From a virus: a stretch of 55,447 nucleotides of DNA. Positions 23,586-50,435 of this stretch are shown here, piece by piece. Location of the stretch: positions 1 to 55,447 of IMG/VR virus record IMGVR_UViG_3300042991_000477; one strand, 5' to 3'. Positions within the stretch are counted from its first letter, which is position 1; each line of letters begins with the position of its first letter. The translations under genes were made by a program, and so were the position numbers. Under the pieces are notes generated by a model. The model was not told the DNA's origin. It did no database searches and was given only the letters and a program-made list of their open reading frames with translations.

Positions 23586-24148
23586 AAATATTTTGAAACT
23601 CTTCTATCTTTTTTTCTTTTAACCAAAGATAAACCCATATCACATATTGGTAAATTTATAATATCTAATTCTGGATGAATAGAATAAACATAATCAAAGA
23701 TATGATATGAATCTGAACAAAGATTAGTATGTATCATTACTTCATGTATAGGATCGGTGTCATGTAAAATTATAATACCAAACTCATTTAATACTTTTAA
23801 TGAATTTTCAAAATCTCTTCTAACATACCTCCAATCATGATTAGCATCAATAAAAATAATATCAAATGTTTCATTATTATTATTAAAAAAATTATCGGTG
23901 GTCATTAAATGATATTCTATATTATTTTTATCTTGTAATTTATCATAAACATCCACACCAACACATTTTTCTACATGATCTCTAATATATTTTATGTTAT
24001 AACCATTATCTACACCAAGTTCTAAATATTTTCTACAATTTGTGGTTTTTACTAAATCTTGTATAAAAACGGCATATGTTTCTACTGGTTTATAATCTCT
24101 AATTCCATCAATACTGTTTATTCTACCATATGCAAATTTATCTATCAT
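23582..24148 (-). CDS. Class I SAM-dependent methyltransferase
   Basis: A 188-residue protein with the class I methyltransferase pattern: CRKYLELGVDNGYNIKYIRD (SAM-binding glycine loop), VGVDVYDK (acidic residue after strand 2), FDIIFIDANHDWRYVRRDFE (motif of the Methyltransf_24 group), and FGIIILHDTDPIHE. It overlaps the next gene by 4 nt. It is likely a sugar O-methyltransferase given the cluster. The substrate is unknown. Confidence 0.8.
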   Translation of the reverse strand: MIDKFAYGRINSIDGIRDYKPVETYAVFIQDLVKTTNCRKYLELGVDNGYNIKYIRDHVEKCVGVDVYDKLQDKNNIEYHLMTTDNFFNNNNETFDIIFIDANHDWRYVRRDFENSLKVLNEFGIIILHDTDPIHEVMIHTNLCSDSYHIFDYVYSIHPELDIINLPICDMGLSLVKRKKDRRVSKYL

Positions 24149-24157
24149 ATTATTATT

Positions 24158-24811
24158 TTAATTTCTATTATCTATATAAATAATTACTTGTTTATAGTAT
24201 TCCACAAAATGTTCATTAAATAAATCCCATTTAATATCAATGCCATCAATTGATAAAACATTATAATTAAATCTTATTAACATATTATCTCTAAAGTTTT
24301 TAAACATTTTATTATCCTCATCAAGACCTAAATGACATTCAAATGCTATTTTTTTAACATTATTTTTTAAGTAATCAAAATTTTCTTCAGTAAATATTAA
24401 ATATTCTCCTCCTTCACAATCAATTTTTAAAAAATCAATATTATCTATACAATTATCTGTTATAAATTCTTTAAATGTTATACCTTTAGCTTTACTTTCA
24501 AATCCTTGCCATTCTATATTTACTTCAAATTCATTGGAAATAGCTCTCCTTAAAAAAGATACTGGGTAACCTTTTAGGTTTTTATATAATGTTCTATAAT
24601 GAGCCTCAACAGGCTCCATAACCCAACAATGTTGTGGATTTTTATCTAATATTGAATATGTAAAGCTTCCAACGAATGCGCCAATATCAACAACGATATC
24701 GTTTTCTTCTACTTTAAATATTTTTTCATATTGACCTGCTAAAGTTTCGTCTCGTAAAAAAGTATAATGAGATTCTGGTACACCCCAATCAAAATTATCA
24801 AAATTTAACAT
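24158..24811 (-). CDS. FkbM-family methyltransferase
   Basis: A 217-residue protein with FkbM features: DIVVDIGAFVGSFTYSIL (SAM loop), CWVMEPVEAHYRTLYKNL (E-P motif), IDFLKIDCEGGEYLIF (the D-x-E-G-x-E signature) and AFECHLGLDED. FkbM enzymes methylate hydroxyls, often on sugars. It lies between another methyltransferase and a glycosyltransferase-like gene, which supports a glycan-modifying role. Confidence 0.85.
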   Translation of the reverse strand: MLNFDNFDWGVPESHYTFLRDETLAGQYEKIFKVEENDIVVDIGAFVGSFTYSILDKNPQHCWVMEPVEAHYRTLYKNLKGYPVSFLRRAISNEFEVNIEWQGFESKAKGITFKEFITDNCIDNIDFLKIDCEGGEYLIFTEENFDYLKNNVKKIAFECHLGLDEDNKMFKNFRDNMLIRFNYNVLSIDGIDIKWDLFNEHFVEYYKQVIIYIDNRN

Positions 24812-24836
24812 ATTTTTTTATTTATTTTTATAATAA

Positions 24837-25919
24837 TTATTCATATTTCATTTTTATACCTTGGTATTTCATTGCAACAATTATTTCTCTATCAATAACT
24901 TTATTATTTATAATTATTGATACTTTATCTTCATCTATTAATTTAATAATATCATTCATAGAATAATCAGTTAATAATGAATATTCTTTATTTTTAATAT
25001 TATATGCATTGGTTATATTACCATTAATATTTATAACAATATTATCAATTGGTTTATTAATTTCAAAAATAAATATCTCAAATTTATTATGTTCTTCATT
25101 AATTCCACCAAATACAAAGCAATAGCCAATATTAATTAAATCAAAACCATTTGCTTCTGATACTGTTGTATATACATCAAAATCTTCTTTTTTTGTATCA
25201 GTTGAATATTGTATAGAATCACCTAAATGGATTTTTATCTCTGATGTACCCAATTTTTTTATTTTAAAATTATCTACTCCATAATATTTTTCATGCTTAT
25301 ATTTATTTTCAATTTTATATAAAACTTCCATTAAATATGTTTCTAACATTGTATCTTTAGATTGTAAATATTTTTCTAATGTTAATTCATTTGTTAATGT
25401 TTCAATAAATGTATTTTTTATAGAAAAAAATACAACAAATATCATTTTATCATCATATTCATTTGCATCAAAATCTCTTTTATTTAAATCTGAATATTCA
25501 AAAACAGCATCATTATTTTGTAAATAATCTTGATGTTTTTTTAAAACGTAATCAGTTATAAAGGTATCATAATTAATAACATGTATATAATCATATTTTT
25601 TTTCTTTTAAAAAAATTAGAGAACTATTCCATTGATTCATAACAGCATAAGAATAATCTGGATTTGTTATGGTTAACAATTTATTTGCGGTTTTATACCA
25701 CTTCCATCTTATTATTGTTTTTGAACCATCTCTTATTACTGGATTGGTTGAATCATAAATATAATATTTTACACTTTGCTGAATTTCTAAATCAAGTGGA
25801 TAGTGTGCATGAATTAATATATCTATATTAAATCTATTTAGATTACTTATACATTTTTTTAATTCACTTACCCTATATGGTGTATTACAGTATGTCGTTA
25901 TTATGAAGCATTCTTTCAT
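24837..25919 (-). CDS. Glycosyltransferase-like protein
   Basis: A 360-residue protein beginning MKECFIITTYCNTPYRVSEL. The first 200 residues fit a GT-A-type nucleotide-sugar fold: IDILIHAHYPLDLEIQ, YYIYDSTNPVI, NSSLIFLKEKKYDYIHVINY followed by D-T-F-I-T. The last third is beta-rich with its own motif (GDSIQYSTDTKKEDFDVYT). It is the intact paralogue of the frameshifted gene at 20332-21275. It is first in a minus-strand run of sugar genes. I do not recognise a named family. Confidence 0.6.
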   Translation of the reverse strand: MKECFIITTYCNTPYRVSELKKCISNLNRFNIDILIHAHYPLDLEIQQSVKYYIYDSTNPVIRDGSKTIIRWKWYKTANKLLTITNPDYSYAVMNQWNSSLIFLKEKKYDYIHVINYDTFITDYVLKKHQDYLQNNDAVFEYSDLNKRDFDANEYDDKMIFVVFFSIKNTFIETLTNELTLEKYLQSKDTMLETYLMEVLYKIENKYKHEKYYGVDNFKIKKLGTSEIKIHLGDSIQYSTDTKKEDFDVYTTVSEANGFDLINIGYCFVFGGINEEHNKFEIFIFEINKPIDNIVININGNITNAYNIKNKEYSLLTDYSMNDIIKLIDEDKVSIIINNKVIDREIIVAMKYQGIKMKYE

Positions 25920-26939: not shown

Positions 26940-27941
26940 ATGATATTAACAAAAGAAGTGAATATACATATTAAAGGTGCTCTTATAAAAAGATATAAAG
27001 ATATAGGATATATTGTTAATACAAAAGATTTAAATGTAATAAAAGTTGAAGATCTACCTAAAAATAGTCAAATGAAGGTTAAAGTAAAATGTGATACTTG
27101 CAATATCGAAAAAGACTTAAAAATTCAAGATTATTATTCAAGTTTTAAAAATAACAAATACTCATGTAATAAATGTAAAATATCAACATACAAAAAAACA
27201 ATGTTAGAAAAATATGGAGTTGAAAATAGTTTTCAATTAGAAGAAATAAAAGAAAAATTAAAAGAAACAAAAATTAAAAAATATAAAGATAAAAATTATA
27301 ATAATAGGGCAAAAGCTTCTGAAACTTGTTTAAATAAATATGGTGTTAAAAATCCTCAGCAGAATATCAACATAAAAGAAAAAACCTCAACTACAAATTT
27401 AGAAAAATATGGATTTAGAGCAGTTTCTAAAAATGAAACGGTAAAGGAAAAAATTAAAAACACGAATTTAAAAAAATGGAATAGTGTGTGTACTCTACAC
27501 TCAAATTTACAAAAAGATAAAATAAAAGAAATATTTATTAATAAATATGGGTTTGATAATCCTATGAAAAACAAAGAAATAATGATTAAATCCCAAATAT
27601 CATCACTAAAAAGAAAAGTTTTTTTAAATACTAAGTTATTATATCAAAGTAGTTATGAATTAAATTTTTTAAATAATTATTATAATAAAATAATTATTGA
27701 AAATGGAAAATCAATAAGAATTACTTTTGATAATAAAAAAACTATGTATCATTCAGATTTTTTTATACCAGATATAAATTTAATTATTGAAATAAAATCA
27801 TCATATTGGTATAAAAAGTATTATAGTAAAAATATAGTAAAACAGCAAGAATGTGAAAAATTAGGATATAAATATATTATAATAATAGATAAAAATTATA
27901 ATGAATTTAATTCTATATTGCAGAATCTTCTAAATTTTTAA
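26940..27941 (+). CDS. Homing endonuclease with PD-(D/E)xK-like domain
   Basis: A 333-residue protein. Residues 1-90 repeat the N-terminal module of 5490-6257 (the 'YKxxGY' segment, then KVKCDTCNIEKDLKIQDYYS and SCNKCK). Residues 95-230 carry at least five 'EKYGVxNxxQ' repeats. The C-terminal part (YQSSYELNFLNNYY, HSDFFIPDINLIIEIKSSYW) is a VSR/PD-(D/E)xK nuclease with D-F...E-I-K catalytic pattern. Its 3' end overlaps the 3' end of the DNA polymerase gene by 29 nt on the opposite strand, so it appears to have landed at the polymerase gene. Confidence 0.85.
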   Translation: MILTKEVNIHIKGALIKRYKDIGYIVNTKDLNVIKVEDLPKNSQMKVKVKCDTCNIEKDLKIQDYYSSFKNNKYSCNKCKISTYKKTMLEKYGVENSFQLEEIKEKLKETKIKKYKDKNYNNRAKASETCLNKYGVKNPQQNINIKEKTSTTNLEKYGFRAVSKNETVKEKIKNTNLKKWNSVCTLHSNLQKDKIKEIFINKYGFDNPMKNKEIMIKSQISSLKRKVFLNTKLLYQSSYELNFLNNYYNKIIIENGKSIRITFDNKKTMYHSDFFIPDINLIIEIKSSYWYKKYYSKNIVKQQECEKLGYKYIIIIDKNYNEFNSILQNLLNF

Positions 27942-29391
27942 GTTCAGATTTTAATTTTTCAAGTTCTTCGTGTTTTTCCATCATTACTTTCTTCCATTTT
28001 TTTCTATCAGAATAAACATCACCCATTACAGAGGTTACTACGCCAAGTTCATTCTTAAAAACAGATCCATTTAGAGTTACAATATCAGTAGGATCTATCA
28101 TTAATTGATGACCATTAAATACAGAATAGCTTTTACCTTTAATTTGTTGACCTTTATATGAATCGGCAGAAATATTAAATTGTCTCATTGTTGTTGGATA
28201 CAAAGAACTAAAATCAAAACAAACTGTCCATGTTGCCATACCTCTAACTGGTTCTTTCACCCAACCACCTTTAATTGATGATGCCTCTGTATCACCATAT
28301 TCGTCAACGTGTTCATCTCTAACCAGCACAACATTTTTTTGATCTCTTAATTTTTCTCTTAATATTCCTTCAGTTAATGCTAATGTGGAAATAGCATCTT
28401 TTATTCTAATTTTACCTAAAACAGACATACCATAAAGTATATCAACATATTTCATTTTAATGTGTATTCTTTGAACGAGGCAACTATCTACAGCATTATA
28501 AAAAACGAATTTTTTAAAGTCTTCTCTGTGTAATCTTGTTAAGTCACCTTCATAATTAATTTTTTTAATACCTATAATTTTTTCAGAAGCAAAATCTAAT
28601 GATTGACTTTCTTTAACTTTAATAGATTGATCCCACTTTGTAAATATTTCCATATAGTCAATTATTACTCTGTGTGCTGGTATTTCAGCATAATCTTGTT
28701 GTCCTTTTGAATTGAAATTAAATGGTACATTCATTTTTTTTGTAAATGATGCTACCGATGGATCTATTCCAATTTTTCTTGCTCTTGCCACTAAAAATAC
28801 CCAGTCATAATTAGTGAAATTCCATCCAGTAATTACTGGCATTTTTGGTACTAATTTATTAAAAAAATTATTTAACAGATCATATTCGTTTTTATATTGA
28901 ACATATTTAAATACATAATTTGTTTCAAATTTTTTAAAGTGAATATTAATGTCTGATTCTATTGATTCTATTTGTTGAATAGTTAAAGGTTCTGTACCTA
29001 TAACTAATATTTTATTTTTATTTACTATAGATATAGTTTGAATTGCACTTTCTGCTAAATGTGGTTCTGGTTTTTTATCCAAAATTTCATTTTCAATATC
29101 AACAAAGAAAATATCAGGCTCATTATACTCATATATTTCATTTCTTTCATCTTCTGGTAAATTATCTATAAAATCATACACGGAATATTTATTTGGGTAC
29201 TTCGTGTATATCTCCTTGACACTCAAACCATTCCAGGTTACATATCTACCAGATTTCTCTGGATCATTATCACCAGTAGTTATAAATTTAGTGGGGCTAC
29301 TCCAATTTTTATACTTTAATTTTATAGAACCTTGTTTATCAATGTATGATATGATCAAATTCCCATTCCTAAACTCATAATCAACTATCAT
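27913..29391 (-). CDS. Family B DNA polymerase, N-terminal half (T4 gp43-like)
   Basis: About 492 residues from ATG 29391 (MIVDYEFRNGNLIISYID); an in-frame ATG exists at 29439 but adds an unlikely leader. Exonuclease motifs: IFFVDIENE (exo I), ITGWNFTNYDWVFL (exo II), FYNAVDSCLVQR (exo III). Polymerase motif A is CFDFSSLYPTTMRQFN near residue 405. The protein ends about 85 residues later at LKNLEDSAI, before motif B (K-x-x-x-N-S-x-Y-G) and motif C (D-T-D). The second half is not in this window. It matches the A/B split of gp43 seen in some T4-like phages, next to a homing endonuclease gene. Confidence 0.88.
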   Translation of the reverse strand: MIVDYEFRNGNLIISYIDKQGSIKLKYKNWSSPTKFITTGDNDPEKSGRYVTWNGLSVKEIYTKYPNKYSVYDFIDNLPEDERNEIYEYNEPDIFFVDIENEILDKKPEPHLAESAIQTISIVNKNKILVIGTEPLTIQQIESIESDINIHFKKFETNYVFKYVQYKNEYDLLNNFFNKLVPKMPVITGWNFTNYDWVFLVARARKIGIDPSVASFTKKMNVPFNFNSKGQQDYAEIPAHRVIIDYMEIFTKWDQSIKVKESQSLDFASEKIIGIKKINYEGDLTRLHREDFKKFVFYNAVDSCLVQRIHIKMKYVDILYGMSVLGKIRIKDAISTLALTEGILREKLRDQKNVVLVRDEHVDEYGDTEASSIKGGWVKEPVRGMATWTVCFDFSSLYPTTMRQFNISADSYKGQQIKGKSYSVFNGHQLMIDPTDIVTLNGSVFKNELGVVTSVMGDVYSDRKKWKKVMMEKHEELEKLKSELKNLEDSAI

Positions 29392-29483
29392 AGTGTATAT
29401 TATTATTTTTTTGATGCTATATTTATAGTCATTTAACATTTTTGACTTTGTTTATTTTATATATACATATAAAATAAAAGTTT

Positions 29484-31180: not shown

Positions 31181-31750
31181 TTATGTTTTTATAAATGACC
31201 CCCATATTAATGATTTAACTTCATTGTAATTAAAACCATTTAAATTAAAGTTAATTATAGAATTTTCTATTGCTTCATAGCTTGATTCAGCAGGATATTG
31301 CCAACCGCTTTCTATACAAATGTTACTATATTCTATATCTGATTCTTTATAATCATGTATCATAATAACATCATTTATTTTTAAATATTTTGAAAATAAA
31401 TTAAATTCATTATTTTTATCACCGCCATCGCATAATAGTAAAACTCTTATATTTTCTTCTTGTATTAAATTTATAATTTCATTTTTAATATTTTCTTCAA
31501 ATACATTACCAATTCTAAAGTCAATATTTATACTTTTATCTACTGTGTTAAAATTTGGATTAATATCATAAGATATTAATTCAGTACTATCTAGTTTGTT
31601 TCTATAAATCAACAATGCTAATCCACCAGCATAAGTGCCAATTTCTATTATCCTATCAAAATCTAAAATGATTTTTTTAAAATAGTCTTCTATTCCAGGA
31701 GTTTGTCCTAAATGCACTCCTTCAAATGTAAATGATGTTCCTTTTTTCAT
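31181..31750 (-). CDS. CmcI-like class I methyltransferase
   Basis: A 189-residue protein with methyltransferase motifs: RIIEIGTYAGGLALLIYRN (SAM loop), LISYDINPNF (acidic strand 2), VLLLCDGGDKNNEFNLFS and DVIMIHDYKESD. The 'GVHLGQTPG' start and 'LCDGGDK' resemble the cephalosporin-hydroxylase/CmcI-type methyltransferases common in sugar clusters. It is last in the adhesin-glycosyltransferase block and follows the 31755 gene with a 4-nt gap. Confidence 0.75.
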   Translation of the reverse strand: MKKGTSFTFEGVHLGQTPGIEDYFKKIILDFDRIIEIGTYAGGLALLIYRNKLDSTELISYDINPNFNTVDKSINIDFRIGNVFEENIKNEIINLIQEENIRVLLLCDGGDKNNEFNLFSKYLKINDVIMIHDYKESDIEYSNICIESGWQYPAESSYEAIENSIINFNLNGFNYNEVKSLIWGSFIKT

Positions 31751-31754
31751 ATAT

Positions 31755-32942
31755 TTAAAATATTTTTGTTAATTGTGGAAAATTTAATTCAGTATTTTTA
31801 ATTTCTTCTATATATTTATAAGATATACTATTAATTTCTCCTTTTGTTTCTTTATAAAACGGTGATGTTTGGTACGCAGTTTTTGCAAAATGTTTACCAT
31901 CATTTGCAACGACACCAGCATTATGATATATAGAATGTGTTAAATCTTTAATATCATGATTAGCCCAATGAAATTCTAATTCTGAAATGCATTTTGTCTG
32001 TATATTATTTTTCCATAATACCCAATTAGTTGTCCACATTTCAGATGTCCAAGCTTGTATAGAATATGGATCTCCTTTGGGTTTATATATTTCAGCAGTA
32101 TCTATCATGTGTTTATATAATGGTACTGATGTTTTTTCAACTTCATTCCAAAACTCAAAAGTATTATTTTTAGTTATATATTGAGCACCCCCACAATTTT
32201 TATCATTATTTAAAACTAATTCGGGTGATATTTTAACAATATCGCACATATCATAAAATAATTGTTCACCTTTACTTTTTATATATGTGGAATTTAAATA
32301 GCTACAAGTATCACTTTCATACCAAATATCATCATCTGCAAATTTTTCCCAATCTATTTTTTTTAAAAAAATAACATCAGGATCAAGATAAACATAGACA
32401 TTATCTTTTTCTTCTGGAAAATTTTTAAAATATTGAGCCATCAACCAAGGCTTCATACTTGCTGAATATGTCTTATCATCTCTATTATCGTAATAAATAT
32501 GAAATTTAGATTTTATATCTATATTATTTATTAATTCCTCTAGAATCTTAGTTTTAGTATTATTAAAACAACATACTGGATAATGTGTGTCAATATCATA
32601 ACCGTGTTTTTTAAAATTATTTATTTGAACTAATACTTGCCACAAATAATATGATGTGTCAGGTAAAGGTATTATAAATTTTATTTTTCTTATTTTACCA
32701 TTAAAATCAATTCTTAATTTATTATCAACAGGTAATTTACAATTATCACCTTCCCTTATTCTTATTTCTTTTTGTATATTATTTTCTTCATATAATATAT
32801 TAAGATATTTGACTCTATTTGGAGAAGGGTCACCAAAAATTAAATTAGATGGAATAAATTCTAATTTTTCATTATTTATTATATATTTTCTAACTATTTC
32901 TGTTACATCTTTATTTCCATATGTTGCATTTAATATTTCCAT
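31755..32942 (-). CDS. DUF3395-like domain plus glycosyltransferase
   Basis: A 395-residue protein. Residues 1-72 are the repeated DUF3395-like unit (ILNATYGNKDVTEIV, FGDPSPNRVKYLNILY). Residues 78-395 align along their full length with the stand-alone protein 38275-39186: 'YYLWQVLVQINNFKKHGYDI', YLDPDVIFLKKIDW with the D-x-D metal motif, 'CGGAQYIT', QAWTSEMWTTNW, and FHWANHD. A GT-A glycosyltransferase is inferred. It is one of two closely related enzymes in the same operon, differing by the extra N-terminal domain. Confidence 0.75.
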   Translation of the reverse strand: MEILNATYGNKDVTEIVRKYIINNEKLEFIPSNLIFGDPSPNRVKYLNILYEENNIQKEIRIREGDNCKLPVDNKLRIDFNGKIRKIKFIIPLPDTSYYLWQVLVQINNFKKHGYDIDTHYPVCCFNNTKTKILEELINNIDIKSKFHIYYDNRDDKTYSASMKPWLMAQYFKNFPEEKDNVYVYLDPDVIFLKKIDWEKFADDDIWYESDTCSYLNSTYIKSKGEQLFYDMCDIVKISPELVLNNDKNCGGAQYITKNNTFEFWNEVEKTSVPLYKHMIDTAEIYKPKGDPYSIQAWTSEMWTTNWVLWKNNIQTKCISELEFHWANHDIKDLTHSIYHNAGVVANDGKHFAKTAYQTSPFYKETKGEINSISYKYIEEIKNTELNFPQLTKIF

Positions 32943-32945
32943 TAT

Positions 32946-34664
32946 TTATTTTTTTATTTTATTACAATAATTTATAACGTTGTTAATTCTATTTTTATGA
33001 GAATGATAAGATCTTGCAAACCAAGTATGATATGCAAATTCTTTACCTTCATGATTTTTTAAAATTGTGGTTAAATCGTCTAAATCAGAATCATATGCAT
33101 CCAAATATAAATATTTGCAATTATTTCTCAACATTGAAAAAAATATTTTATAATATGGTTCGAAATTATCATATATAATACCATAAGGTTTATATCCTTC
33201 AGCTATAGTTCTTGAAAATTTTTCTTCTTGTTTTATATTAGTTTTTAATAAATTATTAGGTATAAATACATCCAAATCTTTATTATAGAATTGATTGATA
33301 TTAGGATTATAGAAAGTTCTAAGAAACTTTAAATTAATTATTGTAAAAAATGCATTGATTGAAATTGGATTATGAAATCTATGAGATATGACTCCACCAT
33401 CTGGCATTCCTGAAAAAGATATATTATTTTTAATTTGATAAAATAATAAATCTAGCATAGCATTTGTATCTGTTATAAAACAATCTTCGTCAATATAAAT
33501 CATCCAATCACAACTATCAATATTTTTAATTACATATTCAAAAAATGATAATCCATATAATCCGCCCGAACCATTAATTTTAATGTGTTCTATAAAATCT
33601 ACTTTTTCATAAAAAGATTTGGATTCTTTATATAATTCTTCATTAATATAATTAGAAACAATTTTTACTTTATCGAAATCAATTTTGACATTTTTAAAGA
33701 ATGAAAAATCTACAGCATCATTTAAAGTTGATTTTACAAATTTTTCATAAACTTTTTTATTATTATCATAATTTTCACGCATATTCTTATCAGGGTGATA
33801 TAAATGTAATAAGTCAGATTTTTGTCTAATTACATTATATTTATATGCTATTATTTTATTGTGAAATAAATCATCTTCAAATCCCCAACCTTTTATATCA
33901 TTAGAATGACCGCCTATTCTATAATACATTTCTGAACTTATTATACCTATACCACCTGTTGCTGATTGAATTTTATAATAATTTATATTTAAATTTTCAC
34001 CATCGTTATTAGTATCATTAGACATAAATAATTGAGACGTTTCAGAATTTAAATATTTTACATTTTCATATGGAATAATATAATTATTAGTATCTAATAA
34101 GTATCTAAAATCTTTTAATTTAATTAATATATTTTTATCTATAACACAATCTGCATCAGCAAGAATTAAGTATTTACCTTCACTAATATTAAAACCCTGA
34201 TTAAATAAATATGCTTTTCTAAAAAATGTATTTGTATTTAAAATATATAAATGTTTACTAACCAATTCTGAAACTTGTTCTAAATTTGTTTTAGTGTCCT
34301 GTTCTACAATAATAATATTTGCATTAGGTAAATATTTTTTATAATATTTAATAATAAATAGCAAATTTGTTTTCCTATATTCATCTGAATTTTTAAATGG
34401 AATAATTATATCTATATTATTATATATATCATCAGTTATATCATATTCTGTATTAATATTAAGCATTGTGCCTTCTTGTATTGATTTAGTATATTTTTTA
34501 TCATCAATTTCATACTCGACTGTTAAATATTTTACTATATTAGGTGATGGATCACCAAATAAATAATTTGACACATTTATATTGATACCATTTTCATTAA
34601 CATGTTTTAATAATATATCAGTTACATCGTACTCATTATATAAAGCTTTTAATATTTTTAGCAT
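32946..34664 (-). CDS. DUF3395-like domain plus tandem glycosyltransferases
   Basis: A 572-residue protein. Residues 1-72 carry the DUF3395-like unit (ILKALYNEYDVTDIL, FGDPSPNIVKYLTVEY). Residues 80-310 form a family 2/7-type glycosyltransferase: IDIIIPFKNSDEYRKTNL, YLILADADCVIDKN (D-x-D), then GGHSNDIKGWGFEDDLFHNK, the acceptor-side motif of galactosyltransferases. Residues 325-572 form a second transferase-like unit with CDWMIYIDEDCFITDTNAML. Two active sites in one chain suggest stepwise addition of sugars. Confidence 0.78.
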   Translation of the reverse strand: MLKILKALYNEYDVTDILLKHVNENGININVSNYLFGDPSPNIVKYLTVEYEIDDKKYTKSIQEGTMLNINTEYDITDDIYNNIDIIIPFKNSDEYRKTNLLFIIKYYKKYLPNANIIIVEQDTKTNLEQVSELVSKHLYILNTNTFFRKAYLFNQGFNISEGKYLILADADCVIDKNILIKLKDFRYLLDTNNYIIPYENVKYLNSETSQLFMSNDTNNDGENLNINYYKIQSATGGIGIISSEMYYRIGGHSNDIKGWGFEDDLFHNKIIAYKYNVIRQKSDLLHLYHPDKNMRENYDNNKKVYEKFVKSTLNDAVDFSFFKNVKIDFDKVKIVSNYINEELYKESKSFYEKVDFIEHIKINGSGGLYGLSFFEYVIKNIDSCDWMIYIDEDCFITDTNAMLDLLFYQIKNNISFSGMPDGGVISHRFHNPISINAFFTIINLKFLRTFYNPNINQFYNKDLDVFIPNNLLKTNIKQEEKFSRTIAEGYKPYGIIYDNFEPYYKIFFSMLRNNCKYLYLDAYDSDLDDLTTILKNHEGKEFAYHTWFARSYHSHKNRINNVINYCNKIKK

Positions 34665-34667
34665 ATT

Positions 34668-37433
34668 TTAATTTATTTTAATATTATTACCTTCTATATA
34701 TTCTTTTTCAATAATATTGTTGTTTAGGTAATATTTAATTTTCAAAGTTTTATGTACACCTGGACAAGGATCACCAAACAATTGATTACCAGCAATGAAA
34801 GATATAGAATTGTTTGCTATTTTATCATTTAAAATGTTTGTAACATCTATTACACATTTATGTGAACCATAATTAGCTTTAATTATTCTAAATGTTGGTA
34901 ATTCTGAATAGTAATTTTTATTAAAATGCGGATTTAAATTTATAATACCATTTTCAGAATTATTATTTATTTTATTATCAACATAATTAAAAATATTATT
35001 ATTATTTGGTGTTTGACTATTTAAAGTAGATATATGATATGTATCAACATTCCATCTATATATCATAGTGTAGTGTCCATAATCACATTCTGATATATTT
35101 CCACCCATTTCAAAAGTTATTTTAACATCTTCTGTTACACTAATGTCTGGAAATTCTATATTATCTAAATATTTTTTTGTATATATATTTCCAGTATTAA
35201 TATTACCTGATATATATTTAAAATTGTCATTTATAAAAGTATAATTAAATGTAGATCTATATATATCATATAATGGATATTCATCTATTTGCTTTTTAAC
35301 AATTTTTAATGCATTTGGAGCAAGCAGGTCATCATCATCTAATCTATAAATATAATTATATTTACATTGTTTATAACCAAATTCTATTTTTTTAGATATT
35401 GATGAAAATCTTTCCTTACAATTTATTATTCTAACTCTAGGATTATCATAAACATATTCTACATCTGAAGAATCATTTATAATAACCATTTCTGATTCGT
35501 TTTCAAAATTTTGATTTAAAAAGGATTGAATTGCCTCTTCTAATATGTGATGTCTTTTATATGTTAAAGTTAATATTGATATATTTACTTTTTCTATATA
35601 ATTTTTATATATTTTGATATCTTCATCTGCTACATCAGAAAAATTTAAAGATGTTTTAGAAACTTCACCTTCAGCTTTTAAACCTCTAATTATATATGCA
35701 TTATCTTTTAATTTTTGAAGTAGGTAATCATCTCCACATGCTACTTTTAATTGTTCTGGTATATTTACCCATTTTTGTTTTTTAATAAAAAGTAAACATC
35801 CCCAACAACTTAGCCTTTCATTAATTTTTTCAATATATAGTGTTTTATTTATATCTTTTTCATATAATGAATTAATATCCATGCCTATTATTCCACAATC
35901 TGATAAATTACTCACAAATTCAAAAATTCTTGTTTCAAAATTAATATCATCATTACATATACATATATTATCATATTTAGAATTTAAGACACCTATATTC
36001 CAAGATGGATTAACATATTGATTATCTATATAAGATAGTACTTTTATTTTATTATAATTTTTATTTACTTTATCATTATACTTATTATTGTTATCTATTA
36101 TAATTATTTCTCCTACATAATTACAATTGTCTAATTCATCTAATAGTTTATAAATAAAATTAGATTTCCATAATGTTGGTATTATAACTGAAAATTTTTT
36201 ATTATTTTCATTTTTATATTCTTTTATTTTTTCTTTAATAAAATAATATATCCATGTGGTTAAAGAATATTTAGAATTTTCATTAATATCTATAAACCAT
36301 TCTTCTTCATTATCTTTTGAATGCATCCATAAATTAGAAATATAAGAATATCTTTCTAATATTAATTTATAAAAATCTTTAGCAACATTTATATCACATT
36401 TATAATTACCCCATGAATAATTATTTATATCAGGTAATGTATTATATATATCACACATTTCTCCACCGTATTCACATCTATCGTATAATGATGATACTGA
36501 TACATGACCTTCATATAAATATAATAAAGTCAATCCAAATATAAAATCTATATTTATTTTTTCAATATTATTTTTTATTGCATCTAATGATAATGATTGC
36601 CATGAAAAATTATCACATATTGATATAACATTATTAGAATTTAAAAATTTCTCATTATATAATAATTCTTTTAATATATAATGTTCAGATTCAAAGTTTT
36701 GCCAACAATCATTTCTAGGGAACATAGGAATATTATCATAACCTCTTATTTCTCTATATTTACCATCTATACAATCTTTACTTGTTAAATTATTATAAAA
36801 ACAAGTATGTGGATCATAAGACCTACATATTATATTTTTTTGTGTTGATAACTTATTAATACAAATATCATCAGTGTCTATATAACTACCACCATATTTA
36901 TGCATTAAAACCAATCTTAATAAATCTGAAAATTCTCTTGGTCCACATTTAAAATATTTTTCTTTTAATAATTCTTCAGGAATACCACTTTTATCAAAAA
37001 TATTAATATACCATTTTACAACATTAATGTTAAATATATTTTCGAGGTCATCTTGTTCTATAGTATTTGAAATTAAATATATTGGTCTGCTTTCATTAAA
37101 AATTCTAGTTGAATATAATACATCTTTTAATAATATCATTCTATTTTTTGATATACTACCATCCCAATAAAAAAAGATGTTATTAATATCTTTTTTTATT
37201 TCCTCAAAGTCTTCTTTAAATTCTATATCTATAATGTCTAATTCATTAAAATATTTTTCCTTTATTGTTATTCCATCTATGTATTTTAAATATAATTTTT
37301 TTTTAATACCTGGGGTTGGATCTGTAAAGATGTTATTTGATACTTGAATATATAATTTATTATTAATGATATATTTATTTAGTATATTTTTGACATCTAA
37401 CATTTCATAATAAGCTTCAATTATTTTAGACAT
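34668..37433 (-). CDS. Five-domain glycosyltransferase with two DUF3395-like domains
   Basis: A 921-residue protein. Order: DUF3395-like unit (residues 1-72, FTDPTPGIKKKLYLKY); a sugar-binding DXD-type transferase (90-330; KCGPREFSDLLRLVLMHKYG then SYIDTDDICINK); family 2 transferase (400-610; FSVIIPTLWKSNFIYKLL, NICICNDDINF); a second family 2 transferase (625-840; ISILTLTYKRHHILEEAIQS, IYRLDDDDLLAPNAL); and a second DUF3395-like unit at 850-921 (FRIIKANYG, FGDPCPGVHKTLKIKYY). The largest gene of the window. It could assemble a short glycan alone. Confidence 0.82.
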   Translation of the reverse strand: MSKIIEAYYEMLDVKNILNKYIINNKLYIQVSNNIFTDPTPGIKKKLYLKYIDGITIKEKYFNELDIIDIEFKEDFEEIKKDINNIFFYWDGSISKNRMILLKDVLYSTRIFNESRPIYLISNTIEQDDLENIFNINVVKWYINIFDKSGIPEELLKEKYFKCGPREFSDLLRLVLMHKYGGSYIDTDDICINKLSTQKNIICRSYDPHTCFYNNLTSKDCIDGKYREIRGYDNIPMFPRNDCWQNFESEHYILKELLYNEKFLNSNNVISICDNFSWQSLSLDAIKNNIEKINIDFIFGLTLLYLYEGHVSVSSLYDRCEYGGEMCDIYNTLPDINNYSWGNYKCDINVAKDFYKLILERYSYISNLWMHSKDNEEEWFIDINENSKYSLTTWIYYFIKEKIKEYKNENNKKFSVIIPTLWKSNFIYKLLDELDNCNYVGEIIIIDNNNKYNDKVNKNYNKIKVLSYIDNQYVNPSWNIGVLNSKYDNICICNDDINFETRIFEFVSNLSDCGIIGMDINSLYEKDINKTLYIEKINERLSCWGCLLFIKKQKWVNIPEQLKVACGDDYLLQKLKDNAYIIRGLKAEGEVSKTSLNFSDVADEDIKIYKNYIEKVNISILTLTYKRHHILEEAIQSFLNQNFENESEMVIINDSSDVEYVYDNPRVRIINCKERFSSISKKIEFGYKQCKYNYIYRLDDDDLLAPNALKIVKKQIDEYPLYDIYRSTFNYTFINDNFKYISGNINTGNIYTKKYLDNIEFPDISVTEDVKITFEMGGNISECDYGHYTMIYRWNVDTYHISTLNSQTPNNNNIFNYVDNKINNNSENGIINLNPHFNKNYYSELPTFRIIKANYGSHKCVIDVTNILNDKIANNSISFIAGNQLFGDPCPGVHKTLKIKYYLNNNIIEKEYIEGNNIKIN

Positions 37434-37450
37434 TATTTTTATTTTTATTT

Positions 37451-38266
37451 TTATATAACTTCAGTCGTATTTGAATTCCAATCATAATAATATAAAACCT
37501 CATTAATATTGAATTCGGTTTTTATTTTATTTTTTAATTGTTTAGCATATTCAGAATCCTCACCTAAATTTATAGGTAAATATTTAATATCCAAAGCTAT
37601 ATCTTTTTTAACACACATTAAATGATTTGGTAATCTATAATATTCGTTATCAGTATTATAATCATTATTATAATTAATAGAATAATAGCATATTTTTGGT
37701 GTAGAATTATTTAATGATACCATAACATTAAATGTTATTACATCAGAATTATTAAATGTTGCATTATATATTTTTATTATGTAGTCATTTGAAACTCTAT
37801 CATCATCATCAACAAATACTACATATTCACCTGATGAACAATTTAATAATTCGTTTCTTTTTTTACCAATTGTCATTTTTTTATTATCTATTATAGATAT
37901 AATTTCTATTTCTTGTTGTATTTTATTATTAAGACTATTATATTGTGAAAATAAGTTATTTAACATATTTATTAAAAAATTATTATATCTATTATGTGTA
38001 GAACAAATGCAGATACTTAATTTAGTTTTATGTAATTTGGCTAATGTGTTTTCATTAATTATTAAAAACTCATTTTCTTTAATATTATCTTCAAATATTT
38101 TATTATTATATTTATATTTAATATACAAATTTTTTATAATACCAGGAGATGGATCTCCAAAATAATTATTACTAACTTGCATGTTAATTTCATTATTAAT
38201 TATCTTATTCTCAATAATTTTTGTAACGTCTAAATAATTATAATTTGCTTTTAGTATTTCTAGCAT
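37451..38266 (-). CDS. DUF3395-like domain plus family 2 glycosyltransferase
   Basis: A 271-residue protein. Residues 1-70 are the DUF3395-like unit (ILKANYNYLDVTKII, FGDPSPGIIKNLYIKY). Residues 78-271 are a compact family 2 glycosyltransferase: LSICICSTHNRYNNFLINML, GKKRNELLNCSSGEYVVFVD with the following D-D-D-R metal motif, and NHLMCVKKDIALD. It lies 17 nt after the gene upstream on this strand. The pairing repeats the layout of its three neighbours. Confidence 0.8.
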   Translation of the reverse strand: MLEILKANYNYLDVTKIIENKIINNEINMQVSNNYFGDPSPGIIKNLYIKYKYNNKIFEDNIKENEFLIINENTLAKLHKTKLSICICSTHNRYNNFLINMLNNLFSQYNSLNNKIQQEIEIISIIDNKKMTIGKKRNELLNCSSGEYVVFVDDDDRVSNDYIIKIYNATFNNSDVITFNVMVSLNNSTPKICYYSINYNNDYNTDNEYYRLPNHLMCVKKDIALDIKYLPINLGEDSEYAKQLKNKIKTEFNINEVLYYYDWNSNTTEVI

Positions 38267-38274
38267 AATATATA

Positions 38275-39186
38275 TTAAAAAAGAATATCTTTAAATGTTT
38301 CTTCTGTTTCTTTTATTTCTTTTATGTAATTATATGTACAATTATCATTATTGGCATATAATTCTTTATTAAATGGTGATACTTGATATGTAATTTTACT
38401 AAAATGTGTAGCACTATCTCCTGGTATACCAGCATTATGAAATATATTTGTTTCATTCCATCTACTAATATTATCAGTTGCCCAACAAAAATCTAATTCC
38501 TTATTTATTTTAATTTTATGATTAAAATAGATAGCATTCCATAATAAAGACCACATATCAGCGGTCCAAGATTGTATAGGTGATTGTGGACTATAGATTT
38601 TATCTGTTTCTTTCATCAATCTATATAATTTTTCACTATCATCTAATGATTTTTTAAAAAAATCAGCATTTATATTTTTCATAATGTATTGAGCACCTCC
38701 TGAATTTTCCTCATTATTTGATATAACTTCTGGCGACACGCCAACCACTTCACACATTTTTTCAAAAAGTTCTACACTTTTATTTTTTATATATTGACTA
38801 CCGATATAAGATATTGTGTTGCTTAAATGCCAATATTCATCTTTTTCCATTTCTGTGAAGTCAATTTTATTGGTAAAAATTGCATCTGGATCTATTAAAA
38901 AAACTGTATGTTTTTCAAAATCTGGATTTTCTCTATAAAATTTCTCTAAAATATAATGTCTTAAGGTTACAGGATATGTCATATTTGTTCTTTCATCCTT
39001 AGTAATAAAAAATTTAGATTTTATTTTAGGATGATTCATAATTGATTGAAGAACTGGAGATGGATTATGAGTTGAAATCATATAATATGCATCTATATCA
39101 TATCCATATTTCATAAAATTATTAATTTGTACTAAACATTGCCATAAATAATAATTGTGATCAAAAGTAGGTATTAAAAACTTCAT
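38275..39186 (-). CDS. Glycosyltransferase without DUF3395-like domain
   Basis: A 303-residue protein matching the catalytic part of 31755-32942: 'YYLWQCLVQINNFMKYGYDI', FLIDPDAIFTNKIDF (D-x-D), NSGGAQYIMKN, QSWTADMWSLLWNA, FCWATDNISRW, FHNAGIPGDSATHFSK. No DUF3395-like domain precedes it. It is the first gene after the adhesin in the minus-strand block (54 nt from its stop), so it may be the enzyme acting first on the adhesin. Confidence 0.72.
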   Translation of the reverse strand: MKFLIPTFDHNYYLWQCLVQINNFMKYGYDIDAYYMISTHNPSPVLQSIMNHPKIKSKFFITKDERTNMTYPVTLRHYILEKFYRENPDFEKHTVFLIDPDAIFTNKIDFTEMEKDEYWHLSNTISYIGSQYIKNKSVELFEKMCEVVGVSPEVISNNEENSGGAQYIMKNINADFFKKSLDDSEKLYRLMKETDKIYSPQSPIQSWTADMWSLLWNAIYFNHKIKINKELDFCWATDNISRWNETNIFHNAGIPGDSATHFSKITYQVSPFNKELYANNDNCTYNYIKEIKETEETFKDILF

Positions 39187-39240
39187 TAAATAATTTTTTC
39201 ATTTATATATAATATTTAGTTGGGCTTGTTTTAAATATTT

Positions 39241-40911
39241 TTAATATCTTTTAATGTAAATATCCATTATAGTAGTAGCAATATTTGTTGAATATTCTGA
39301 CCAGTTTGTTCCACCATCTGTTGTTTTTAAAATTTTACCCTCATCTGTTCCTACCCAGCCAATGCTTTCATTTATGAATACACTGCTTAATATACTATTA
39401 ACAGTTTCTGGTAAATTTGATGATAAATCAATCCAAGTTGAACCACTATCAGATGATGCCCAACATTTACCTGATACAGGAGATACGCTTCCATCGCTTG
39501 AACCAAAAATAAATATATTACCTGGAGTTGGAAATGATATTGAATTCATAGTATGAGAATGTGACACTCCTGAGTTGGCTTCATTAATGAATACTGATGC
39601 TGATACTTTTGACCAAGTTTCGCCACTATTAACACTTTTAAGTACTCTAGTTGTTTGATCATCACTTTGACTAGAAATAATAAATCCTGTATTACCATTA
39701 AAGATAACATCGTCTAATACTATATCATCAGTAAGACCACTCATAGTTGATATAGTCCAATTTATTCCACTATTTGTTGTTGATATAAGATTATTTATAA
39801 GAAGATCTGTTTCAGACCTAGTACCAACAATATTTTTATAATTTAATGCGTACAGACTATTAATCCATCCAGTTATACCTGATTTTGAAATACTCCATGT
39901 ATCATTAGAAGTTGTATATTTAAGTATAGTATCATCATTAGCACCTATATAAATATTAGTACCCAATTCTTTTGTTGCACATGCGAAATTTTTATCTGCT
40001 GCAATTGCAGGAAGATTTGATGCTTGATCTATCCAAGTAGTACCACTATCTATTGTTTTTAGTGCTCCACCTATTTTATTTGAATCTGCACTACCAAATA
40101 CAAATCCAGTACCAGGATTAATGAAGGAAATAGCTCTATAATTATCTGTTGTTGCACCTGTATGTACAATTGACCATGTGCTACCATCGTTAGTTGATTT
40201 CATTATATATTTTTGTGATACTGCAAATAATGTATTTGCTGAAAGTGTCGTTGTAGTGGTAGTTGTTGGAGCCAATGTTGTTGTTATTATAGGTGATGTT
40301 GTTGTAGTAGTGGTAGTTGGTGTTAATGTTGTTGTAGTGGTGGTTGTTGTTGGAGTCAATGTTGTAGTGGTAGTTGTATTACCAGTTGTACAAGATTGTG
40401 AAATTAATACTGTTCCACCACTTATATTTCCAGAATATATTGAATCATCATTATATGTAGTATTCCAACCATAATAACCAGTTATATTATATATGTTTAA
40501 TAGAGATGTATCAGTATAAAAGTTAGTAATACTTAAAGGATTTGATTCTACAGCATATCTAGGTGTGGTGTTAAGATATCTACCACAAGCATCACTTAAA
40601 GATATAAATAAGCCTGTAGTTAAATAATAAGTATAATAAGGATCTGATGTTGTGGTAGTAGTTGTTAAAGAACAAACTCCAAGTTGTGTATAAATACCAA
40701 CAGTACTAATAGCTCCATATGGATTTGATGGTCCGTGTGGATTAGCATAATAATATCCACCACCATTAAATAATCCACCATGCCAAAAATAGTAAATAGC
40801 TCCATTTCTTAAAGTGTCACCACTTATAAGTGAGTATGCTGTAAAAATTTTCACACCTTCACTATTACATAAATTTGAAGGAAATGATGCTCTATAAACA
40901 TCTTCAACCAT
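39241..40911 (-). CDS. Thr-rich adhesin with beta-propeller (distal part)
   Basis: A 556-residue ORF from ATG 40911, but coding sequence continues upstream in frame to 41142. Residues 1-175 include Gly/Tyr-rich segments (GGLFNGGGYYYANPHGP). Residues about 178-225 are a Thr-rich tract. Residues 240-556 are about six BNR/Ycf48-type blades with S-x-D-x-G-x-x-W signatures (STNDGSTWSIV, TIDSGTTWIDQ, SVNSGETWSKV, SSDSGSTWIDL, TTDGGTNWSEY). Such propellers bind glycans or proteins at phage fibre tips. The upstream 77 codons encode a CarboxypepD_reg-like unit (TVLSGATIEVSGL). Confidence 0.78.
   Translation of the reverse strand: MVEDVYRASFPSNLCNSEGVKIFTAYSLISGDTLRNGAIYYFWHGGLFNGGGYYYANPHGPSNPYGAISTVGIYTQLGVCSLTTTTTTSDPYYTYYLTTGLFISLSDACGRYLNTTPRYAVESNPLSITNFYTDTSLLNIYNITGYYGWNTTYNDDSIYSGNISGGTVLISQSCTTGNTTTTTTLTPTTTTTTTTLTPTTTTTTTSPIITTTLAPTTTTTTTLSANTLFAVSQKYIMKSTNDGSTWSIVHTGATTDNYRAISFINPGTGFVFGSADSNKIGGALKTIDSGTTWIDQASNLPAIAADKNFACATKELGTNIYIGANDDTILKYTTSNDTWSISKSGITGWINSLYALNYKNIVGTRSETDLLINNLISTTNSGINWTISTMSGLTDDIVLDDVIFNGNTGFIISSQSDDQTTRVLKSVNSGETWSKVSASVFINEANSGVSHSHTMNSISFPTPGNIFIFGSSDGSVSPVSGKCWASSDSGSTWIDLSSNLPETVNSILSSVFINESIGWVGTDEGKILKTTDGGTNWSEYSTNIATTIMDIYIKRY
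40247..40378 (-). repeat. Thr-codon low-complexity tract (mucin-like linker)
   Basis: Imperfect repeats of ACA/ACT/ACC codons encode runs of five to eight Thr broken by LTP, SPII and LAP. The tract links the N-terminal part of the adhesin to its propeller. Thr-Pro-rich linkers of this kind are common O-glycosylation sites. It is flanked downstream by a series of glycosyltransferase genes on the same strand. Confidence 0.9.
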
Positions 40912-41142
40912 ATATAAAGGACCAATTAATATAATATCAACAATATTATTAACGTTTGGTAAAATTGTTGGTATTACAGTTTCTGTTGTATAACCTGTTG
41001 CTGAACATGTAACTATACTTTGACCTATAGGTACAGTTAAAATATAATAACCATTAATATCAGTATATGCTATTAAACCAGAAACTTCAATGGTTGCACC
41101 AGATAAAACTGTTGTCCCACTTTCAGTAACACCACTAACATG

Positions 41143-41667
41143 TCATGACATGGTTGAAAATTGAGATGAAAAAACATTACTATTATAAAAAACAGCACCA
41201 TCTGTAATATTATTATAAAAAATTCCACCATTACAAGAAACTTTACTTAAATATTGATGTTTTAATTTATAACCTGTTGTTATATCATTATAATATCTAT
41301 TTATTACAATTTCATTTTTATTTTTATCAACATATAAGATTTTATAACCAAAATTATAAGTGGAATATATTACATTAGAATTATCAAGTCTAAAAACATC
41401 AGGGTAATCATTTAATTCTAAATAAGTTATATAAATTGTATCTCCAATTTCGAAATTACTTTCAACTTCAGTATATAATTTAATATAACCATTCCAATTA
41501 CTATATGTTTCTAATATTTTAACTGCATTTTTAATATTTATATACTCTTTTTTAGTATTATTTGCTTGTATTAAAATTTTAGGATTAATAGTAGTTGTAT
41601 TACTTGTGTTAGGTTCAGGTAATGGTAATCTAGTTGTTTTCTTATTTGAAATTTTTAATCTTGACAT
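41143..41667 (-). CDS. Adhesin N-terminal part, ended by in-frame TGA
   Basis: A 174-residue ORF beginning MSRLKISNKKTTRLPLPEPN, a Pro/Thr start typical of phage fibre proteins. The body is beta-rich (NGYIKLYTEVESNFEIGDTI, VSCNGGIFYNNITDGAVF). It ends STMS then TGA at 41145-41143. The very next codons, in the same frame, read HVSGVTESGTTVLSGATIEV and continue into the adhesin without a start codon for 77 codons. The two ORFs therefore look like one 808-residue protein split by a TGA. Readthrough, mutation or assembly error could explain it. Confidence 0.7.
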   Translation of the reverse strand: MSRLKISNKKTTRLPLPEPNTSNTTTINPKILIQANNTKKEYINIKNAVKILETYSNWNGYIKLYTEVESNFEIGDTIYITYLELNDYPDVFRLDNSNVIYSTYNFGYKILYVDKNKNEIVINRYYNDITTGYKLKHQYLSKVSCNGGIFYNNITDGAVFYNSNVFSSQFSTMS

Positions 41668-41718: not shown

Positions 41719-42456
41719 TTATTGACTGTAAATCTTATCATATAATCTATTTGTTGTGTTAATAAGTTTTTCAATTTTACCTTCTTTTCTTAATTTTTTA
41801 AATACTAAATTCTCAATTGAAAATTCACCACTAGTTGATAAGCCATCTTTTCTAGCTTTCATTATTTTTTTTAATAACTCTTTACTATTATTATAATATT
41901 GTTCAGAATCATAAGAATCTGATTTTCTTTTTGATATTTTTTCTAATTCTTCAATATCATAAACTCTGGCCTCATATTTAATATTAACATCCTCTGTATT
42001 TACGTTTGGTGGATTATAAGAAGGTTTAATTATCCATTTACTATTTAATAATGAATATTGTCCAGATGCAACATGTGCTTCATTTTTATCTTGTACATAT
42101 AATTCAACATCATGTCCTTTTATTACTATATTGTGTTTTAAATTCCATATAAATCTTTGTCCATCAAAAGCTTTTTTTACTAGTGATACATCTTCATTAA
42201 CTTCTGAAAAATCTATAATTATATGAACGTCTAAATCTGAAGATGCTGTATAATTATAGTTGGAAATTGAACCAGTTAATATAATATCTGATATTTCTGT
42301 ATTAATATCTAAATCTTTATGAAAATCTCTAGCTATTCTCAATAATTTCTCTTTAATTCTTTCAATTACATTATTGTTTTCCCAAATATCTGGACATAAT
42401 TTATTTTTATAATTAACTTTTCTTTCAAATATTATAAATTCATTAAAATTTTTCAT
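41719..42456 (-). CDS. Nucleotidyltransferase-fold protein
   Basis: A 245-residue protein with the polymerase-beta-type nucleotidyltransferase core: IILTGSISNYNYTASSDLDV gives G-S, then D-x-D, followed by HIIIDF, and later VELYVQDKNE with the third acidic residue. It begins MKNFNEFIIFERK, strikingly like T4 capsid-targeting peptides (MKTYQEF) and like the KYNI-family tag. The C-terminal 80 residues are helical (YYNNSKELLKKIMKARKD). The transferred nucleotide and target are unknown; it may be packaged in the virion. Confidence 0.75.
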   Translation of the reverse strand: MKNFNEFIIFERKVNYKNKLCPDIWENNNVIERIKEKLLRIARDFHKDLDINTEISDIILTGSISNYNYTASSDLDVHIIIDFSEVNEDVSLVKKAFDGQRFIWNLKHNIVIKGHDVELYVQDKNEAHVASGQYSLLNSKWIIKPSYNPPNVNTEDVNIKYEARVYDIEELEKISKRKSDSYDSEQYYNNSKELLKKIMKARKDGLSTSGEFSIENLVFKKLRKEGKIEKLINTTNRLYDKIYSQ

Positions 42457-48940: not shown

Positions 48941-49227
48941 TTATATGTTATATTTAGTTACTGCAATCTCTTCTTCTTTGATGTTAACATATCCACCAAA
49001 GGTTAACCCATATCTATCGTAACATTCGTCATAGTTATACTTATCAACAATATAATTATAACCCCAGCCATAATGAAAATATCCTACAAATATATACTTA
49101 ACATTAGTATGCTTTCTTATACCTAACATAAGATTAATACTATCAGTATCTACACCAATAGTTCTCATAGCACCTTTGAATCTATTATCAAGTGGTACTA
49201 ACCAATAATGCTTATACTTCTTATCAT
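48941..49227 (-). CDS. KYNI-family protein, probable frameshift at its start
   Basis: An intact frame from ATG 49168 (MRTIGVDTDSINLMLGIRK) gives 75 residues ending AVTKYNI. Upstream codons in the same frame read KKYKHYWLVPLDNRFKGA, matching its neighbour (KRGKYWLIPVDDRMYKS), so the true start is earlier. An ATG at 49227 overlaps the upstream stop by 4 nt, as usual in this family, and joins this frame if one A is added to the AA at about 49220. The repaired protein has 95 residues. Function unknown. Confidence 0.6.
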
Positions 49228-49541
49228 ATGTTATATCTCTTTATGTCAAGCCCTATCTCATCTATATTAACCTTACCCATATACTTATAGCCACAATCAT
49301 TATAGATATTATTACCATCATACTTATAATCTGTAGAAGTATATTCCCACACACCATTGTTTAACGCCATATAAATATACCCATCGTTATATATTATCTT
49401 AAGAAAGTTATGAGTCTTTAAAAGATTTAATGCTAACTCTATATCAACATTAATATCCCTCATAGACTTATACATCCTATCATCAACAGGTATCAACCAA
49501 TACTTACCACGCTTATCATTCATATCATTCATATCATTCAT
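49224..49541 (-). CDS. KYNI-family protein with repeated start
   Basis: A 105-residue protein beginning MNDMNDMNDKRGKYWL and ending IKRYNI. It is a close paralogue of 48941-49227: KYWLIPVDDRMYKSMRDINV against HYWLVPLDNRF and MRTIGV, plus matching GYKYMGKVNIDEI / YGLTFGGYVNIKEE ends. The first nine residues come from a 9-bp tandem repeat that gives three in-frame ATGs. The MKHLK tag is absent. Confidence 0.7.
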   Translation of the reverse strand: MNDMNDMNDKRGKYWLIPVDDRMYKSMRDINVDIELALNLLKTHNFLKIIYNDGYIYMALNNGVWEYTSTDYKYDGNNIYNDCGYKYMGKVNIDEIGLDIKRYNI

Positions 49542-49549
49542 ATCATTCT
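49515..49549. repeat. 9-bp tandem repeat (ATCATTCAT, about 3.8 copies)
   Basis: Three perfect copies and a partial fourth lie at the 5' end of the 49224 gene on the minus strand. Each unit adds Met-Asn-Asp, so copy number sets how many start codons exist. Confidence 0.9.
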
Positions 49550-50147: not shown

Positions 50148-50435
50148 TTAGATATTATATTTATTAGCTGTCAACATCATTTTTAATTCGGTTTCGGTAT
50201 TTGCTACTATAAAAAACTGTTCAATTATATCTAATTTTAAAAATTTAATAATAAAGTACTTTTTATATTCTATTGAAAATGTTGGATTTTTTTCGCCTTC
50301 TGAAATATCGGTTATTTTACCGATATTATCAATAAAAAGTTCGGAATGTTTTCTATCCAATAAGTGTACTTTTTGTGGATCTACAATAATATAATTTCCA
50401 ACTTTCATATTATAAATTTTTGACAAAAATAGCAA
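50148..50435 (-). CDS. KYNI-tailed protein with SH3-like core
   Basis: A 95-residue ORF from ATG 50435 that ends MLTANKYNI. A preferable start is the in-frame ATG at 50408 (MKVGNYIIVDPQKVHLL). The core is VGNYIIVDPQ, 'SELFIDNIGKITDISEG', 'TFSIEYKKYFIIKFLKL' and an acidic helix (ANTETELKMM). The MKHLK tag is absent. The Ile codon is ATC. Copy A of the 81-bp repeat follows its stop at once. Confidence 0.72.
   Translation of the reverse strand: MLFLSKIYNMKVGNYIIVDPQKVHLLDRKHSELFIDNIGKITDISEGEKNPTFSIEYKKYFIIKFLKLDIIEQFFIVANTETELKMMLTANKYNI

Follow-up and report, generated by a model that had tools for sequence, protein, structure and literature searches.

A poly-threonine phage fibre and its neighbouring phrog_4417 glycosyltransferase: evidence for a probable virion self-glycosylation cassette

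Based on gene neighbourhoods in many unrelated phages, we propose that a glycosyltransferase (GT) operon lying directly downstream of a threonine-rich fibre gene acts on the virion itself. We put the probability that this locus is a virion self-glycosylation cassette at roughly 0.7. The key enzyme, here termed GTe, is encoded next to the fibre and belongs to phrog_4417, a family listed in PHROG as being of 'unknown function' and also known as 'prophage pi2 protein 34'. Members of this family are repeatedly found beside virion proteins carrying poly-Thr tracts, and the pattern suggests that poly-Thr may be a tag with which phages sugar-coat their own particles. In the present phage, GTe would most probably glycosylate the poly-Thr tract of the phage's own fibre.

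The window, by which we mean the whole stretch of DNA analysed, is a record of 55,447 bases from a large bacterial virus, with a G+C content of about 22%. It has no nucleotide neighbours that we could find in phage GenBank, no tRNA genes and no Rfam matches were found in it, and a promoter and terminator scan returned the same counts as in shuffled sequences. In order of transcription, all on the minus strand, the locus consists of a nucleotidyltransferase-like gene (41719-42456), the fibre frame (41667-39241), GTe (38275-39186), GTd (37451-38266), GTc (34668-37433), GTb (32946-34664), GTa (31755-32942) and a methyltransferase (31181-31750). The gap between the fibre and GTe is 54 nt, and the subsequent genes are separated by 3-17 nt. 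The original prediction of five GT genes downstream of the adhesin on the same strand is borne out, coordinates included, and so is its Thr tract at 40247-40378, our proposed O-glycan acceptor, in which as many as 10 of 12 residues are Thr; none of the 75 other predicted genes in the window has such a tract. The estimate of about eight catalytic domains was fair: seven can be assigned, three of them in GTc (the middle one weakly) and one in each of the other four enzymes, while the C-terminal half of GTb has no family match. The single methyltransferase is present as a gene, but its family match (Methyltransf_24/31) is weak and below cutoff; this last gene of the operon is probably a sugar O-methyltransferase. 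The adhesin ORF at 39241-40911 is likewise real, except that it is the body of a longer fibre, forming one frame with the ORF at 41143-41667 that is interrupted by a TGA. In this body the Thr tract is followed by a YCF48/BNR-type propeller (PF14870, E 1.5e-10), whose 41.2 bits lie above the Pfam gathering cutoff of 27. No relatives of the fibre body were found in phages.

GTe matches the phrog_4417 profile over the whole protein (E 1.4e-62). A second, paralogous phrog_4417 domain is present in GTa (E 3.5e-62; 40.5% identity to GTe), where it is preceded by a module shared with other enzymes of the operon. The AlphaFold2 model of GTe, built from an alignment of eighteen sequences, has a pLDDT of 94.7, and its best Foldseek match in the PDB is the catalytic domain of UGGT (E 1.6e-7), followed by the blood-group A/B synthases and LgtC. 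The DxD motif corresponds to D99-D101, with D99 invariant and D101 conserved at over 90%. As far as fold class is concerned, the model clearly identifies GTe as a retaining GT-A fold glycosyltransferase, in common with UGGT (GT24), the blood-group A/B synthases (GT6) and LgtC (GT8), all of which have the DxD motif. UGGT itself acts on glycoproteins. However, at about 10% identity and a TM-score of about 0.5 the fold class is all that GTe shares with these enzymes, and therefore neither its sugar nor its acceptor can be read from the structural matches.

An acceptor is suggested by the neighbours of phrog_4417 genes. We picked loci by the presence of phrog_4417 alone and defined poly-Thr as at least 7 Thr in 12 aa; an adjacent same-strand gene with poly-Thr was present in 29 of 35 loci, as opposed to 34 of the 793 other genes there (4%). 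The loci come from phages of Enterococcus, Lactococcus, lactobacilli, Staphylococcus, Arcanobacterium and Chryseobacterium, from jumbo phages and from prophages. They are not fully independent, and p-values for the pairing are indicative only; when GTs are merged at 50% identity, the pairing is seen in 9 of 11 clusters. Among the eight GenBank phages with phrog_4417, representing seven host genera, the poly-Thr protein is encoded immediately upstream in seven, among them phiFL1A and PMBT8, where it is the major tail protein, and CHPC836, where it is the capsid protein. The exception is VPE25, in which the major tail protein bears the tract and is encoded five genes away. A replicate on prophages, again found by the GT alone, gave the pairing in 11 of 12 loci, and further prophage loci gave 4 of 5; over the 3.9 kb of one prophage locus (L415), no tract adjoins the GT. 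Jumbo-phage contigs show the pairing in 10 of 14 distinct loci, and in several of them the GT is located within a baseplate/tail operon beside Thr-tract proteins, some of which are BNR-like as here. In phages of Gram-positive bacteria the tracts are C-terminal tails on capsid or tail proteins, for example TTTTTTKPTTTTTTTQA. The phrog_4417 gene directly follows the major tail protein gene in phiFL1A and PMBT8 (one short gene later in TPWB06) and the major capsid protein gene in CHPC836 (one gene further in PLE3, where both the capsid and the major tail proteins end in TTTTTTTSK).

Two natural pairs of related phages differ in the enzyme. One consists of CHPC836 and CHPC1175, Lactococcus phages of a single genus. 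The GT is encoded by CHPC836, whose capsid and tail proteins end in ...ADQVGNFTGAPTTTTTTQATTTTTSHA and ...NGYASTTTTTTTHA, respectively, whereas the CHPC1175 record has no GT anywhere and the corresponding C-termini (...ADQVGNFTAGK and ...NGYAGVGV) have no Thr tails. Similarly, R3.3 of the genus Coetzeevirus encodes the GT, and its capsid protein and tail protein both carry Thr tails, whereas Bassarid, with a capsid protein 73% identical to that of R3.3, has no GT in its whole record and no Thr tails; a search of the Bassarid genome in all frames found no run of five Thr. A tail carried by two separate virion proteins only when the GT is present is hard to explain by a linker role. The original prediction of fibre self-modification rested on gene order and shared strand, which by themselves are weak evidence; for GTe the idea gains its support, at the level of sequence comparison, from the pairing of phrog_4417 with poly-Thr virion proteins and from the sister phages. 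Extending the argument, we lean towards the view that phrog_4417 is a widespread phage O-glycosyltransferase, the acceptor being a portable poly-Thr tag on capsid, tail-tube or fibre proteins of Bacillota, Actinomycetota and Bacteroidota phages, with tag and enzyme gained and lost together.

For the present locus, these considerations lead to the following scheme. The flexible poly-Thr stretch between the N-terminal part of the fibre and its propeller would be the acceptor, and GTe would place the first sugar on Thr hydroxyls in the cytoplasm of the host, ahead of assembly or while it proceeds. GTd, GTc, GTb and GTa might then lengthen the glycan, perhaps being brought in by the N-terminal module that they share, and the product of the final gene may add a methyl cap. 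The parts of the scheme that we infer are that GTe works on Thr, which sugar it transfers, what the module does, that GTd-GTa extend a glycan begun by GTe, and how the phage benefits. The later enzymes are composite. GTd combines the N-terminal module with a GT2 domain (PF00535, phrog_8858). GTc has the module, a DxD glycosyltransferase domain of the GT32 type (PF04488, E 2e-7), two GT2-like domains (PF00535, E 1.9e-14; the middle one corresponds, weakly, to phrog_29879) and a C-terminal copy of the module (PF11875, E 4.9e-7). GTb consists of the module, a GT2/GT7C domain (PF02709, E 1.5e-10; PF00535) and the unassigned C-terminal half.

The shared module, of about 72 residues and not mentioned in the original prediction, is N-terminal in four of the five GTs, GTa-GTd, with a fifth copy ending GTc; GTe is without it. 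Alignments place the N-terminal copies, all on the minus strand, at 38051-38266 (GTd), 37218-37433 (GTc), 34440-34664 (GTb) and 32727-32942 (GTa). The C-terminal copy of GTc (34671-34892, minus strand) scores 30.0 bits against PF11875 (DnaJ-like_C11_C, DUF3395), above the gathering cutoff of 27.1, whereas the GTd copy, at 20.4, stays below it. A search of viral contigs for relatives of GTd and of the module found none. The AlphaFold2 model for this module family has a pLDDT of 95.4. We considered whether it could be a SUEL/L-rhamnose-binding lectin, the hallmarks of which are YGR, DPC and KYL motifs and eight conserved Cys (PMC10817417). The module does resemble these lectins in a common signature, 'SN..FGDP.PG..K.L' (phmmer E 1.1e-6 to a three-domain lectin). 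However, it has YG without R, DP with mostly S, C or T, K-x-L kept and only 0-1 Cys, and its confident model matches no such lectin in the PDB at E <= 0.001. With the conserved cysteines missing as well, this assignment was rejected.

The main rival to our scheme keeps the core claim and differs solely in the role of the later genes. Here GTe, perhaps together with GTa, would act on the fibre, while GTb-GTd and the methyltransferase would act on host glycans or on other virion proteins. Such a division is possible, although we hold it to be distinctly the less probable arrangement. It would agree with the variability of the genes after GTe among relatives (GT6, GT25-like or none), which are thus not obligate partners, and with the module that links GTa-GTd and is missing from GTe. 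On the other hand, GTa, of the same catalytic family as GTe, bears the module too, and the 3-17 nt spacing suggests a single transcript. Moreover, two further contigs (L023 and L213) repeat the arrangement of a poly-Thr protein followed by GTe and then directly by a module-bearing protein, and because of this recurrence we tie the module to the cassette.

Another alternative is that the operon serves to alter LPS, capsule or S-layer at the host surface, blocking superinfection or changing the receptor, and is found near the fibre because host-range genes cluster there. Loci for surface polysaccharides typically contain GT2-type domains and methyltransferases. Furthermore, the window contains a second carbohydrate island at 18669-25919 on the minus strand, not beside a fibre. 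It encodes a PseB-like NDP-sugar dehydratase (below cutoff), an epimerase-like protein, a Methyltransf_24+GT17 fusion, a Methyltransf_24 protein, an FkbM methyltransferase and two paralogous, unassigned 'NYDT'-motif proteins resembling GTs. The island suggests wider functions in carbohydrate metabolism or modification and leaves room for roles at the host surface or elsewhere. Nevertheless, we consider remodelling of the host unlikely as the explanation of the operon. In small siphophages phrog_4417 occurs as a single gene in head/tail operons, next to Thr-tailed capsid or tail proteins and with no other listed GT gene, and remodelling fails to explain why the Thr tails are absent when phrog_4417 is absent.

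Poly-Thr tracts might also be plain flexible linkers, the pairing merely reflecting that both they and the GT are common in tail operons. The relationship was also viewed from the side of poly-Thr. In viral contigs the GT was present in 12 of 120 poly-Thr stretches and in none of 120 poly-Ala stretches (Fisher p 4e-4, indicative), and phrog_4417 was the commonest family among the neighbours of poly-Thr ORFs (9 of 100). No GT family was common in the Pfam matches listed for 100 neighbours; GTs in general are thus not enriched beside poly-Thr, and phrog_4417 alone is linked to it. Restricting the comparison to records of at least 30 kb gave phrog_4417 in 4 of 30 poly-Thr and 0 of 28 poly-Ala records. 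Poly-Thr is accordingly rejected as a sufficient predictor of phrog_4417: since most of these large poly-Thr phage records are without the GT, poly-Thr occurs without it too, which is what the linker explanation would expect. That explanation nevertheless seems improbable to us, given that poly-Ala tracts show no such pairing, that the tracts occur on the capsid and distant tail proteins of the same genome and that, in two genera, both are missing where the GT is missing.

The fibre is a single minus-strand reading frame of 808 codons, and the in-frame TGA (41143-41145) that breaks it lies inside a 14-bp palindrome, CATGTCATGACATG (41139-41152). The N-terminal part of 174 codons (41143-41667), which is probably the virion anchor, has a sole detected relative in contig L030 (7995-9266, 49% identity), in which the frame is uninterrupted where the window has the TGA. 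Just past the TGA is a carboxypeptidase regulatory-like domain (CarbopepD_reg_2, 40951-41133, minus strand; PF13715, E 7e-6), under the curated cutoff here and above it in the L030 relative. Recoding of TGA was ruled out, as 25 of 81 ORFs end in TGA, and so was read-through driven by RNA structure, as there is no stable fold around the TGA (z 0.01). Because TGA serves as an ordinary stop in this phage, the one in the fibre frame may reflect a nonsense change, mark a site of read-through or stem from an error in assembly. A full-length fibre from the sequenced genome is not guaranteed because of this TGA. That the fibre is a broken or misassembled gene in a decaying locus, uninformative about function, is a reading that the palindromic TGA and the intact L030 frame would allow, but we think it improbable, since there is no other stop or frameshift across the 808 codons, the GT genes are intact, and a single-base metagenome assembly error or read-through is as likely.

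The closest relatives of GTe are found in long phage contigs, several of which have a DNA polymerase B gene downstream, 76-81% identical to that of the window. In three of them (L007, L014 and L015) the order is a TibC-type enzyme, a TIG-domain fibre, GTe, other GTs and the polymerase, and in a fourth (L013) the TibC-type enzyme is separated from GTe by two fibres with Thr tracts. The TIGR04414 domain of this enzyme scores 305 and 314 bits in L007 and L013, respectively, against a curated cutoff of 200, and the L007 enzyme keeps the catalytic Asp and the four iron-finger Cys of TibC (compared with PMC4358343). TibC O-heptosylates adhesins in E. coli (PMC4358343). Given this activity and the upstream position of the TibC-type enzyme in the relatives, the reading of the locus as a genomic slot for fibre-modifying enzymes is strengthened. 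The resemblance is to TibC/Aah (BAHT) as dedicated O-glycosyltransferases adjoining their adhesin, since in the phage relatives the TIGR04414 domain is encoded directly upstream of the TIG fibre. Unlike TibC/Aah, however, the phage enzyme is fused to a GT4 domain, and its neighbour is a TIG-domain phage fibre rather than an autotransporter with strand-loop-strand repeats. The 55-kb window, which is a fragment, has no TIGR04414 match. The fibre next to the GT is without a poly-Thr tract in L007, L014 and L015; such tracts occur elsewhere in the L007 and L014 records and are absent from the 97-kb L015 fragment. Other fibres also occur in these contigs. L013 encodes a Thr-tract fibre with a type I phosphodiesterase/nucleotide pyrophosphatase domain (7971-9923), possibly receptor-cleaving, and L014 has, in the slot that separates the GTs from the polymerase, a 1191-aa collagen-like fibre with GxNGTSG repeats (14446-18021). 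Viral contigs commonly encode TibC-type O-heptosyltransferase domains (L039-L117): 108 of 109 candidates were confirmed, 47 distinct ones were counted, and the domains are often fused to or beside GT4 domains and beside fibre-like genes.

Glycosylation of phage virions as such is not novel, although in the open-access literature it is documented in few mycobacteriophages only. According to accounts of Freeman et al. (2023) given in PMC12363180 and PMC12619734, phage GTs in Che8, Corndog and Myrna modify the C-termini of the phages' own capsid or tail tube proteins, and virion glycosylation shields mycobacteriophage virions from antibodies. The cassette proposed here is similar in that phage-encoded GTs would act on the phage's own virion proteins. 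Compared by capsid and tail proteins, it differs from the Che8 system in centring on phrog_4417 and poly-Thr tags, in this case on a fibre; neither the capsid protein nor the major tail protein of Che8 ends in poly-Thr or contains a Thr tract. No description of the poly-Thr/phrog_4417 pairing was found in the open-access literature, and the pairing thus looks new. If the rule is true, it assigns a function to an unannotated family and makes both the modified proteins and their probable acceptor residues predictable across many cultured phages of Enterococcus, Lactococcus, lactobacilli and Staphylococcus. It could then be tested with existing laboratory phages, including the natural pairs that differ in the enzyme. 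The contact of phage particles with host surfaces and the immune system is a further question on which it bears, and the combination of a short tag and a single enzyme would offer a useful model for protein O-glycosylation in bacteria.

Several other features of the window are worth pointing out. The DNA polymerase B ORF (27913-29439, minus strand) covers the exonuclease but stops after only the initial portion of the polymerase domain. Its end is similar in L007, L013, L014 and L015, so that it looks like a conserved split polymerase, and homing-endonuclease-like ORFs are found nearby, with an ORF at 26940-27941 (plus strand) noted alongside. A glutamine-dependent NAD synthase is encoded at 9322-11073 (plus strand), and in L007, L014 and L015 an NAD synthase gene is near or directly upstream of the TibC-type enzyme. 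Finally, at 76-2317 and 49224-52573 (minus strand) many small ORFs end in KYNI or a similar sequence before TGA, which suggests a family of small proteins with a common C-terminal motif.
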